Shown: positions 25,733 through 29,278 of the stretch, one piece after another | Position numbering within the stretch: the stretch's first letter is position 1 | Layout of the letters: the number at the start of each line of letters is the position of its first letter | DNA from: Ruminococcus sp. | GTDB taxonomy: Bacteria; Bacillota; Clostridia; Oscillospirales; Ruminococcaceae | DNA: 33,600 bases | Direction: 5' to 3' | NCBI GenBank assembly: GCA_017517145.1 | Contig: JAFXAJ010000033.1 | Location: forward strand, 1 to 33,600 | The notes under the pieces: generated by a model | Database searches by the model: none | What the model was told of the DNA's origin: nothing | The model's input: the letters and a program-made list of their open reading frames with translations, nothing else | Made by a program: the position numbers and the translations under genes

Positions 25733-26173
25733 TCAGTTTTCTTTTAAAATCTCCAGTGCCTTATTATACTTTTCATCCCATTTTGCAAGCTTTTCAGCAG
25801 TGACAACGGAACTGTCAACAATTCTGCTTCTGTCCATATTGTGTGCTAAATCAGCAAACTTAACCTTTTTCGCAGTGGGATTACCCTTTATTCTGCGGAC
25901 ATATTCAAAATAGTCCGTTCCTTTCTCGTGGGTAAGAAGCTTTAACGCTTCGATTACCTCCTGCGGAAACTCCTTTGCCAGTTCGTCAAGAGTGACTTCC
26001 GTATCCTCAGCTACGTCGTGGAGCAGGGCAACACAGCAGGAAATCTCATCGTCCATTTGCTCTGCTAAATGATATGGGTGGAATACGTATGGCATACCAT
26101 TGCAGTCAGTCTGCCCGTGATGTGCCGTATATGCGATTTGCATTGCTTTGTAGGTTAGCTTTGTGTATATCAT
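25733..26173 (-). CDS. HD-domain phosphohydrolase (SpoT/MESH1-like)
   Basis: 146-aa stand-alone HD hydrolase. The motifs are AHHGQTDCNGMPYVFHP (first His and the RxxxxPYxxHP-like block), LLHDVAEDTEVTLDEL (the HD pair and ED) and FADLAHNMDRSRI near residue 101, as in small (p)ppGpp hydrolases. Hence a possible role in alarmone or nucleotide turnover, but single-domain members may act on other substrates. The start at 26173 has GGGAG 6 nt upstream and follows the MaoC stop by 11 bp. Last gene of the T-box-led operon. Confidence 0.82.
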   Translation of the reverse strand: MIYTKLTYKAMQIAYTAHHGQTDCNGMPYVFHPYHLAEQMDDEISCCVALLHDVAEDTEVTLDELAKEFPQEVIEALKLLTHEKGTDYFEYVRRIKGNPTAKKVKFADLAHNMDRSRIVDSSVVTAEKLAKWDEKYNKALEILKEN

Positions 26174-26184
26174 AATTACTCCCT

Positions 26185-26619
26185 TTATTTTTCTTCTCTG
26201 CATTTCACAATTGCTTCGGTAACATTAGTCAGCACAACTTCGCCGTTCTGATTTTTCACCTCGATTGTAATTTCAGCAAGACCATTTCTGGCATTTCTCT
26301 TTTCAAGATTTGTGATAATTGCCTTTCCTGTTAAAACATCTTCGGCAAAAACTGGCTTTAGCCATTCGATTTTTGTGGATTTGCCTGCTAAAAGTTCCTC
26401 ACCGAAGAAATCTACTTCCAGATATTTCGCCCATACTGCCATAAAGGACATAACACCGGGTGCAATAAGTTTGCCGAAAGGAGTGGTTTTAGCGTATTCC
26501 TCGTCAGTGTGCAAAGGAACATTGTCATATTCATTGGCAAAAGCCAACATCTTTTCTTTATCAATGACGACAGGAGCAGGTTCTGCCGTCATTCCGATTT
26601 TCAAATCATCAAAATACAT
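26185..26619 (-). CDS. MaoC-like hot-dog dehydratase/hydratase
   Basis: 144 aa of the MaoC/FabZ hot-dog superfamily. The hydratase segment is FANEYDNVPLHTDEEYAKTTPFGKLIAPGVM, with Asp and His in the D-x-x-P-x-H position, followed by W/F-rich strands and TNVTEAIVKC. It would act on enoyl- or hydroxyacyl-thioesters, which suits its position 10 bp downstream of an acyl-CoA ligase. The start at 26619 has AAAGGTGA 5 nt upstream; the longer frame lies in the ligase gene end. Substrate unknown. Confidence 0.85.
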   Translation of the reverse strand: MYFDDLKIGMTAEPAPVVIDKEKMLAFANEYDNVPLHTDEEYAKTTPFGKLIAPGVMSFMAVWAKYLEVDFFGEELLAGKSTKIEWLKPVFAEDVLTGKAIITNLEKRNARNGLAEITIEVKNQNGEVVLTNVTEAIVKCREEK

Positions 26620-26629
26620 TGTATCACCT

Positions 26630-28954
26630 TTATTTCTGTGCATCCTGTGCTCTGATTTCAGAACGGCGGATTTTTCCGCTGCCTACTGTCTTAGGAAGGC
26701 TGTCTCTGAATTCAACAACTCTGGGATATTTATAAGGAGCAGTATGTTCCTTGACATAAGTCTGGATTTCCTTTTTCAGCTCATCTGTACCCTCTGTTCC
26801 GTTTGTAAGAACGATTGTAGCCTTTACAACCTGACCTCTGATTTCGTCGGGAACGCCTGTAACAGCACATTCAAGAACATAAGGGAGCTCCATGATTACG
26901 CTTTCAATTTCAAAGGGTCCGATACGGTAGCCTGATGACTTGATAAGATCATCAACTCTGCCCACATACCAGAAATAACCGTCCTCGTCCATTCTTGCGG
27001 TATCACCTGTATGATACCAACCGTCATGCCATGCTTCTCTTGTGCTTTCCTCATTTCTGTAATAGCTCATAAACAGACCGCATGGCTTTGTATCGCCAAC
27101 TCTGATACAAATTTCACCTGTTTCGCCGTCTCCTGCTTCTGTTCCGTCAGGGTTGAGAATATGAACATCATAAAGGGGATTTGGTCTGCCCATACTGCCC
27201 GGCTTTGCTTCCATTCCCACAAAGTTTGCAACGGAAAGTGTTGTTTCTGTCTGACCGAATCCCTCCATAAGAGAAATTCCCGTAGCTTTCTTAAACTGAT
27301 AGAACACCTCCGGATTGAGAGCTTCACCTGCAATTGTGGCATATTTAAGGCTTGAAAGGTCATATTTTGACAGATCTTCCTTTATGAAGAAACGATACAT
27401 TGTAGGAGGTGCGCAGAATGTTGTGATATTGTATTTCTTGAACATTGGGAGAATATCATCAGCGTGGAAACGCTCGAAATCGTAAACGAAAACTGCTGTT
27501 TCGCACATCCACTGACCATAAAGCTTACCCCACAATGCCTTGCCCCAGCCTGTATCGGAAATTGTAAAATGAATTCCGTTAGGGTCAACATTGTGCCAGT
27601 ATCTTGCTGTGGTGTAGTGCCCAAGAGGATATTTGAAATCATGCATAGCGATTTTGGGATAGCCTGTTGTTCCCGATGTGAAGAACATAAGCATAGGTTC
27701 ACTTCCGCAGGCTGTTTCCTCTGTTCTGGGGAATTCGTTTGAAAATGCAGGAAGCTCTGCGTTGAAGTCGTTCCAGCCATCTCTTGACTTTCCTACGATT
27801 ATTCTTGTTTTAAGTGAAGGACAATTCGGTGCGGCAAGGTCAACTTCATCAGCTACATTTCCGTCAGATGTGCAGACAATTGCAGAGATTTCAGCAGCGT
27901 CAAAACGATATTCAAAATCGTGCTTTACAAGCTGATTTGAAGCGGGAATAACAATTGCACCAAGTCTGTGAAGCGCAAGTATAGAGAACCAGAACTGATA
28001 ATGTCTTTTCAGAACAAGCATTACCTTATCTCCCTTTTTAATACCAAGAGATTTGAAGTAATTTGCTGTCTGGCAGGAATATTCTTTTATATCCTTGAAT
28101 GTGAAGAATCTTTCGCTCTTGTCCTCTGCAACGTGAACCATAGCGATTTTATCAGGAGCTTTTTCAGCCATAGCGTCAACAATGTCATAAGCAAAGTTGA
28201 AACTTTCCTCATTCTGGAAATTTACAGAAGAAAGTGTGCCTGTTTCGTCTGTTTCGCAGGTTACGAATTTATCTGCAACTGGATGAACAATGCCTGCCTT
28301 ATCAAAATTTGTATGGGTAAATTCCTTTACAGTATTTTTCATTTCAGGAACTTCAGCAACGCCATTAGGTTTTATAACAACAGCATATATTTCGCAATCT
28401 TCGCCGCCGAGAGCAATTTCATCGTGGGGAATAGAGCTGTCAAAGAAAATGCTGTCGCCCTCATAAAGAGTTTCAATGTGATTTCCAATAACTTTACGTA
28501 GAGTACCCTTGAGAACAATATCCATTTCCTGTCCTGCATGGCTTGAAAAATGACGGGGTCTTGTCAGAGCCTCCTCTGAATATGGAATTACAACGTGATA
28601 CGGCTCAATCATCTTGTTCTTGAATTTATGTGCAAGGCGGTTGTAACTTAGTCCTTCACGTCTTGTAATTGGCTTGCCCTTGCCTTTTCTTGTTACGGTA
28701 TATTCAGTAAGCTCAGGACCTTTACCCTCCATTAATTCAGAAATATCAACACCGAAAGCAGCGGCACATTTGTAGATAAAAGTGAAGCTGAAATCAGTTT
28801 CGCCCTTTTCCATTTTCTTGTATTCATCAACGGAAAGACCTGTTTTAGAAGCCATAGTTTCAAAGGAAATTCCCATATCCTCACGGAGAGTACGGATACG
28901 CTGCGCAACCTCACGGATGCTCTGCTCTGTTTCTGTTAAATTGCTATTTGACAT
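26630..28954 (-). CDS. HTH-cupin-acyl-CoA ligase fusion (MACS-type AMP-forming synthetase)
   Basis: 774 aa in three parts. An XRE-type helix-turn-helix spans 14-72 (IRTLREDMGISFETMASKTGLSVDEYKKMEKGE). A cupin barrel spans about 105-200 (HSSH-like SSHAGQEMDIVLKG, IPHDEIALGG). A complete AMP-forming acyl-CoA synthetase spans about 245-770, with phosphate loop FFTSGTTGYPK (424-434), GFGQTE (565-570), YHTGD (647-651), hinge GRVDDLIKSSGYRIGP (665-680) and catalytic Lys761 in SGKIRR. The ligase part is most like medium-chain/branched acyl-CoA synthetases. It begins with AAAGGGG before ATG and is led by a T-box. I infer activation of a short branched or aromatic acid, with an attached ligand-sensing DNA-binding head; the acid cannot be read off. 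Confidence 0.9.
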   Translation of the reverse strand: MSNSNLTETEQSIREVAQRIRTLREDMGISFETMASKTGLSVDEYKKMEKGETDFSFTFIYKCAAAFGVDISELMEGKGPELTEYTVTRKGKGKPITRREGLSYNRLAHKFKNKMIEPYHVVIPYSEEALTRPRHFSSHAGQEMDIVLKGTLRKVIGNHIETLYEGDSIFFDSSIPHDEIALGGEDCEIYAVVIKPNGVAEVPEMKNTVKEFTHTNFDKAGIVHPVADKFVTCETDETGTLSSVNFQNEESFNFAYDIVDAMAEKAPDKIAMVHVAEDKSERFFTFKDIKEYSCQTANYFKSLGIKKGDKVMLVLKRHYQFWFSILALHRLGAIVIPASNQLVKHDFEYRFDAAEISAIVCTSDGNVADEVDLAAPNCPSLKTRIIVGKSRDGWNDFNAELPAFSNEFPRTEETACGSEPMLMFFTSGTTGYPKIAMHDFKYPLGHYTTARYWHNVDPNGIHFTISDTGWGKALWGKLYGQWMCETAVFVYDFERFHADDILPMFKKYNITTFCAPPTMYRFFIKEDLSKYDLSSLKYATIAGEALNPEVFYQFKKATGISLMEGFGQTETTLSVANFVGMEAKPGSMGRPNPLYDVHILNPDGTEAGDGETGEICIRVGDTKPCGLFMSYYRNEESTREAWHDGWYHTGDTARMDEDGYFWYVGRVDDLIKSSGYRIGPFEIESVIMELPYVLECAVTGVPDEIRGQVVKATIVLTNGTEGTDELKKEIQTYVKEHTAPYKYPRVVEFRDSLPKTVGSGKIRRSEIRAQDAQK

Positions 28955-28990: not shown

Positions 28991-29278
28991 AAAAAAACGC
29001 CCCAAAGTAAATTACTTTGAGACGAGCTGTAAACCCGCGGTACCACTCAAATTGCGTGCAGTTTTACTGCACACCACTTTCAGACTCGCCCTCACTTTAA
29101 AGGGATAAGCCCTATGCATTTACGCAGCCTCACGGAAAAGCTTACTATTAGGGAAACCCGAAAATTCAGCCTTTCAACTCAGAAGGGATAAACTCTGCTA
29201 ATGTCTGCCGTCTCACACCTACCGCCGGCTCTCTGAAAAACATTTTTCTCAAAGTTCGTGTCTTCGTCTTTGTCATTT
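28991..29278 (-). promoter_or_regulatory. T-box riboswitch leader
   Basis: The minus strand carries the hallmark GTGGTACCGCGG (29046-29035). The antiterminator stem TTTGAG/CTCAAA encloses it. A competing terminator GTCTCAAAGTA/TACTTTGGGGC (28998-29022) is followed by seven T. Upstream, stem I has AGAGAGCCGG and GGTAGGTGTGAG distal motifs. In the specifier region (about 29192-29185) the triplet ATC at 29189-29187 is followed by 5 nt and TGAG, the spacing I recall for a glyQ T-box, so Ile is my first choice. TTT (Phe) or TAT (Tyr), one or two bases away, cannot be excluded. It would let uncharged tRNA switch on the ligase operon. Confidence 0.93.

Follow-up and report, generated by a model that had tools for sequence, protein, structure and literature searches.

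What is a T-box doing in front of the gene for an acyl-CoA ligase? Leaders of this kind usually precede genes for tRNA synthetases, transporters or classical ilv functions, unlike the one considered here, which precedes a ligase predicted to serve reductive synthesis. It lies on the minus strand of a 33,600-nucleotide stretch of Ruminococcus sp. DNA (GenBank assembly GCA_017517145.1, contig JAFXAJ010000033.1), hereafter the window. It has long been known that anaerobes of the rumen make amino acids out of branched short-chain acids, and an earlier note on this DNA had proposed that, given an ATC specifier, uncharged tRNA-Ile would induce the activation of 2-methylbutyrate. Comparison with related leaders, proteins and genomes supports that reading, and we consider it very probable that a tRNA-Ile-sensing attenuation T-box controls a ligase which activates 2-methylbutyrate for reductive carboxylation to isoleucine.

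The Rfam T-box family RF00230 was matched by cmscan at 29279-29015(-), over model positions 1-219, with 101.3 bits against a gathering score of 93 (E 1.8e-21). At 29313-29285(-) there is a sigma-70-type promoter, TTGACA-17-TATAAT, which agrees with the consensus at 12 of 12 positions and has TG before the second hexamer, the call being a consensus match rather than a mapped start. The T-box core, TGGTACCGCG with its UGGU bulge, lies at 29036-29045(-) and is conserved across an alignment of homologous leaders; by the T-box pairing rule, this bulge would pair with the ACCA end of the tRNA. An intrinsic terminator, with a 12-pair stem followed by TTTTTTT, occupies 29024-28998(-), and its 5' arm overlaps the 3' end of the T-box at 29015, as expected of a terminator that overlaps the antiterminator. 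Taken together, these elements make up what appears to be a complete attenuation leader on the minus strand, from 29313 to the ATG of the ligase at 28954, and it shares with other RF00230 T-boxes the specifier loop, the TGGTACC core and the terminator overlapping the 3' end. The claim that a T-box stands ahead of the ligase is borne out by the Rfam match, the consensus promoter and the terminator; we give little weight to the fold of the whole leader RNA (z -2.29). Homologous leaders do not all reach the gathering score, which is attained by 7 of 12 ligase leaders from 10 loci, and four leaders in loci L131 and L132 score 84-88. The window's own assembly (G000, 80% complete) holds eight T-box matches, five of them over the cut-off.

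The identity of the specifier codon decides which amino acid the leader would sense, and the earlier note had named both ATC (Ile) and TTT (Phe), to be settled by comparison with the Rfam model. In the Rfam alignment, AUC falls in the specifier position of the stem I internal loop at 29189-29187(-), exactly where the note had placed ATC, and homologous leaders agree. When the window leader was aligned freely (MAFFT, mean column identity 48%) with 28 others, chosen from those with a readable 5' motif, the A, T and C columns were invariant in 29 of 29 rows, and the columns flanking them, namely the one after and the two before, varied. The TTT reading is excluded because its columns vary among the leaders; the note's alternative of phenylacetate and Phe is lost at this leader, although it has a parallel at PaaK-like genes whose leaders read TTC, to which we return below. 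Read by rule, the leaders ahead of homologous ligases give ATC in 72 of 82 cases (a set that includes five leaders of split HTH-cupin genes), GTA in four and other triplets in three, with three too short; among the three other-triplet leaders, L047 and L065 contain ATC by eye and L049 looks disrupted. An ATC leader also precedes the ligase of Ruminococcus flavefaciens SAb67 (L044), which is 73% identical to that of the window. The parser ignores the triplet in scoring but demands a paired stem, and because of this demand its stems are not proof of covariation. Applied as a control to the seven other T-boxes of the assembly, where gene names are our reading of translations, the rule returned the expected codon in three (AAC at asnS, CTC at leuA and GTA on the valS contig). 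Three low-scoring ones gave wrong or unclear readings, and two of these can be read by eye as TTC in the pheS leader and TGG in the trpB leader. The last, a sub-cut-off T-box on contig C126 (31241-31442(-), L006), reads ACC (Thr) by rule and precedes a 141-aa frame. A leader in a related locus (L112:5571-5829(+)) carries an apparent partial duplication of the specifier-loop stretch.

The gene that follows, at 26630-28954(-) with its start ATG at 28954, encodes a 774-aa protein with the Pfam domains HTH, cupin, AMP-binding and AMP-binding_C. Its nearest PDB chain is 3ETC, that of the acyl-CoA synthetase MacsMa from Methanosarcina acetivorans, with 655 bits (the next chain has 354), which is also the first Foldseek match at 51% identity; by its AMP-binding domains and its closeness to MacsMa it is an AMP-forming ligase of the Macs type. 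The likeness (about 51% identity) extends across the ligase domain, the alignment beginning at residue 249 of the window protein, whereas the HTH-cupin part has no counterpart in MacsMa. According to the accessible part of PMC10455477, 2-methylbutyrate is the preferred substrate of MacsMa and Trp259 a critical residue, in keeping with the note's suggestion that some MACS-family synthetases favour this acid. W453, one of the two putative pocket positions considered here, is the counterpart of Trp259 if the numbering of the PDB chain is shifted by one residue, and it is Trp in all 143 labelled sequences (38 Val, 86 Ile and 19 without a T-box). The best NCBIfam model is the MbcS equivalog NF047394, with 439.7 against a cut-off of 850, and we rejected filing the ligase as MbcS on that score. 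The two are alike in this best match and in predicted substrate; they differ in that the window ligase falls below the equivalog cut-off and in that the 2-methylbutyryl-CoA synthetase MbcS of S. aureus, which uses 2-methylbutyrate and isobutyrate, serves fatty-acid synthesis (PMC10026030, accessible part). A second HTH-cupin-ligase in the same assembly (C12:34995-37283(+), L136) is 65% identical to that of the window, and the HTH-cupin part (about residues 1-200), which is fused here, is a separate gene under the T-box in some relatives.

Two further genes lie downstream on the same strand: a MaoC-like gene (26185-26643(-), Pfam MaoC_dehydratas) that overlaps the 3' end of the ligase gene, and an HD-domain gene, RelA/SpoT hydrolase-like (25733-26203(-), Pfam HD_4, 28.8 against 27.2 bits), that overlaps the MaoC-like gene. 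The operon named in the earlier note is plausible on the basis of these overlapping genes. Relatives of the MaoC-like gene occur near the ligase in five other loci, and directly downstream on the same strand in L065 and L107. In L040 (8340-9782(+)) and eight other loci, a protein with an ACT domain and a metallo-beta-lactamase fold is encoded directly 3' of the ligase on the same strand.

Two such ligases stand in tandem in some genomes. A search of 394 genomes of the order with the second copy as query gave a match at E 1e-250 or better in 137, and of 30 loci fetched from these (L145-L174, including the query's own gene) 25 read GTA and two GTC, one reads GTA by eye (L156), one is cut (L161) and one has no core (L171); none reads ATC. 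In a FastTree of 163 ligases (156 of them different), the 38 rows with a Val codon fall in a single clade of 41 with support 100, the other three being two without a core and one unread; among all 163 rows, 27 lack a T-box core, four are cut and eight are unread or misread. This Val clade is sister to the tandem Ile copies. The window ligase lies elsewhere in the tree, adjoining a clade of 23, mostly without T-boxes, that holds the assembly's second copy and 19 of the 27 coreless ligases, and in which L064 reads ATC. Wherever it can be read, the specifier follows the clade of its ligase, and within the Val clade GTA and GTC differ only synonymously.

One residue of the ligase domain also follows this division. 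All 41 rows of the Val clade have Ala at residue 471, and 120 of the 122 others have Gly there, among them every one of the 86 ATC rows; L028 and L032, which depart from this pattern, are both without a core. In an alignment with an acetyl-CoA synthetase, position 471 falls on the Val of its GWVTG motif, a residue which we take to line the acetate pocket of Salmonella Acs (we found no paper giving its numbering there), and it is probably an acyl-pocket position judging from the alignment. In the AlphaFold model of the ligase the mean pLDDT is 78.9 but residues 468-471 are under 50, and the placement of G471 in the pocket rests, because the model is weak there, on the GWVTG alignment and on the pocket role of that Val in Salmonella Acs. 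Of 745 columns just one, column 99, is fully disjoint, and it lies outside the ligase domain; since several more columns also differ strongly, residue 471 is a candidate rather than proof.

The genes that accompany the ligases in more distant relatives, as opposed to the window genome, suggest what the acyl-CoA might be used for. We chose 20 tandem loci from genomes with two high-scoring ligases before looking for a 2-oxoacid:ferredoxin oxidoreductase of the VOR type, a 2-ketoisovalerate:ferredoxin oxidoreductase, and in 20 of 20 the two ligases, LigA and LigB, are followed on one strand by genes for an ATPase, a ferredoxin, VorB, VorA and VorC, in some loci with IlvE or a nitrilase-like gene between these core genes; IlvE is present in 18 of 20. 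The LigA specifier is ATC in 17 of the 20, the leaders left unread being those of L183 (whose fetched sequence stops within LigA), L188 (which has no core) and L194, and the LigB specifier is GTA or GTC in 19, L188 being the one unread. Three clusters found earlier have the same core: L131 (with IlvE) and L132 read ATC and GTA, and in L133 there was no T-box match; in L188, no T-box was found at the ligases by motif. The VorB of L115 scores 541.5 against a cut-off of 399 with the 3-methyl-2-oxobutanoate (VorB) model, and the ligases of that locus are 62% and 57% identical to that of the window. A further T-box, reading CTC (Leu), is present in five of the 23 clusters (L182, L183, L185, L187 and L132) and is followed by a leuA-like gene in four, the contig ending in L187; in L132, the product of this leuA-like gene carries the domains HMGL-like and LeuA_dimer. 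Most CTC T-boxes stand ahead of a divergent leuA-like gene within the ligase cluster or next to it, and near 1.6 kb in L058 and L069 there are others whose specifier can be read by eye.

From these pieces a mechanism can be proposed. Uncharged tRNA-Ile would base-pair with the leader twice, at the ATC specifier and, by way of its ACCA end, at the UGGU bulge; the bound tRNA would stabilise the antiterminator and RNA polymerase would read into the ligase gene, read-through of the leader being triggered by a fall in charged tRNA-Ile. The ligase would use ATP and CoA to convert 2-methylbutyrate, and perhaps isobutyrate too, to the acyl-CoA (2-methylbutyryl-CoA in the first case), which the VOR encoded on contig C79 of the window genome would carboxylate with reduced ferredoxin and CO2, and IlvE would transaminate the product to isoleucine, bypassing IlvC and IlvD. 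The response to tRNA, the substrate, the direction of the oxidoreductase and the role of an unlinked VOR are what we infer; the biosynthetic direction is suggested because genes induced by shortage of an amino acid should build it rather than degrade it. The predicted chemistry is the same as that of the rumen route from 2-methylbutyrate to isoleucine (Robinson and Allison, 1969, as cited in the accessible part of PMC2812497), but the present case links that chemistry to particular genes and to a leader of the tRNA-sensing kind.

The distribution of these genes was compared in 80 chosen genomes, 30 with a ligase of this family, 26 with none or weak matches and 24 in between. VorB was over its cut-off in 29 of 30, 4 of 26 and 18 of 24 of these groups respectively (the one ligase-bearing genome without VorB being G048), ilvE was found in 27, 17 and 22, and ilvC in 12, 16 and 17. 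Among genomes lacking ilvC, VorB was present in 17 of 18 with the ligase, none of 10 with none or weak matches and 6 of 7 in between. Absence of ilvC by itself was not significantly associated with the ligase (18 of 30 against 10 of 26, p 0.18). In 74 further chosen genomes of the order, with ligase matches taken at E 1e-250 and two candidates scored per genome, ilvC was present in 3 of 31 two-ligase and 19 of 43 one-ligase genomes (p 0.0017, a value that ignores relatedness); some of the single-ligase matches are nearest to the Val type. In the window genome itself, VorB scores 544.4 bits on contig C79, where VorA-like and ATPase-like frames stand alongside by our reading; the sequence surrounding this VOR gave no T-box match. 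The genome has two partial ilvE matches, below the cut-off and on other contigs, and ligase, VOR and IlvE do not form one cluster in it. Neither ilvC nor ilvD was matched there, the lack of ilvC being uncertain because the assembly is 80% complete; a 98% complete relative, G077, has a 91% identical partial ligase running off its contig, so that its leader (L010) lies past the contig end, and has neither ilvC nor ilvD over the cut-off.

Could the ligase instead serve lipids? It might mainly supply 2-methylbutyryl-CoA as the primer of anteiso membrane fatty acids, with isoleucine secondary, and an Ile T-box would suit this role because isoleucine is normally the source of 2-methylbutyryl-CoA. 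S. aureus MbcS does just this with 2-methylbutyrate and isobutyrate, as the accessible part of PMC10026030 has it, and its model, though scored far under the cut-off, is the best NCBIfam match of the window ligase; moreover, the VOR and ilvE matches of the window genome are on contigs other than that of the ligase. However, relatives cluster their ligases with VOR, and mostly with ilvE, under both Ile and Val T-boxes, some of these clusters have a Leu T-box before a leuA-like gene, and VorB accompanies the ligase across the genomes tested; we regard the lipid role as unlikely.

Isoleucine synthesis through 2-methylbutyrate is also to be weighed against synthesis through propionate, in which propionyl-CoA made by the ligase would be carboxylated, and the resulting 2-oxobutyrate would lead to isoleucine by the ordinary pathway, and this too would account for an Ile T-box. 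The steps after 2-oxobutyrate require IlvC and IlvD, however, and these are absent from many of the genomes in question, and the Val-specifier paralogues of the same cluster would be left unexplained. We therefore find the propionate route very improbable, even though MacsMa does adenylate propionate (PMC10455477, accessible part). That the T-box is a relic of copying, barely connected as a regulator with the chemistry of the ligase, might be argued from the cores missing from 27 of 163 ligases, mostly in one clade, and from clusters L133 and L188, but readable specifiers track the ligase clade down to the synonymous GTA/GTC difference among the Val copies, and we give this idea almost no credence.

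Isoleucine and valine may not be the only amino acids handled in this way. In the 30 best PaaK-like loci of 197 genomes, a T-box core lies within 300 nt at 16. The specifier there is TTC (Phe) in 14, a different triplet in one and unreadable in one; the other 14 loci, including the copy in the window genome, have no core. Here too an acid-activating ligase carries a specifier matching the amino acid expected, although the PaaK-like genes belong to another ligase subfamily with an aromatic substrate, and one such protein of the relatives scores 530.2, below the PaaK NCBIfam cut-off of 646.3. To judge from these leaders, the control of acid-activating ligases by T-boxes seems to be a recurrent arrangement, found with Ile, Val and Phe specifiers. 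The T-box loop can be read by eye as GAA-TTC (Phe) ahead of the PaaK-like genes L069:11782-13218(+), L108:12803-14243(+) and L101:5744-4329(-), with an ACT-domain gene next in L069 and L101.

More widely, and with somewhat better than even confidence, we propose that T-boxes of anaerobic gut Clostridia act as starvation sensors for a strategy of 'salvage and re-carboxylate', in which ligases under tRNA-Ile, tRNA-Val and tRNA-Phe control would activate 2-methylbutyrate, isobutyrate and phenylacetate, respectively. The Ile and Val branches would share a ferredoxin-VOR-IlvE operon that replaces IlvC and IlvD, the Val branch having arisen by duplication, a switch of specifier from ATC to GTA and the change of Gly471 to Ala, which would enlarge the residue by a methyl group to face a substrate that has one carbon fewer; such a system could be the genetic basis of the classical rumen requirement for branched volatile fatty acids. 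If true, the branched-acid chemistry of the rumen would gain a named family of ligases, a candidate operon and a switch that senses tRNA. Specifier codons could then be used to predict ligase substrates (Ile, Val and Phe), and bacteria relying on isoacids made by their neighbours could be recognised by the operon, a matter of interest for feeding ruminants with isoacids. Each part belongs to a known kind, and their combination was not found in the literature searched: we found no paper tying a T-box to an acyl-CoA ligase or to VOR, most subscription papers lying outside that literature, and 'acyl-CoA' occurs 0 times in the main texts of PMC2494555, PMC3766115 and PMC2965389. Away from the ligase locus, the window also carries a bacterial class A RNase P RNA at 4889-4546(-) that was matched with 272.3 bits.
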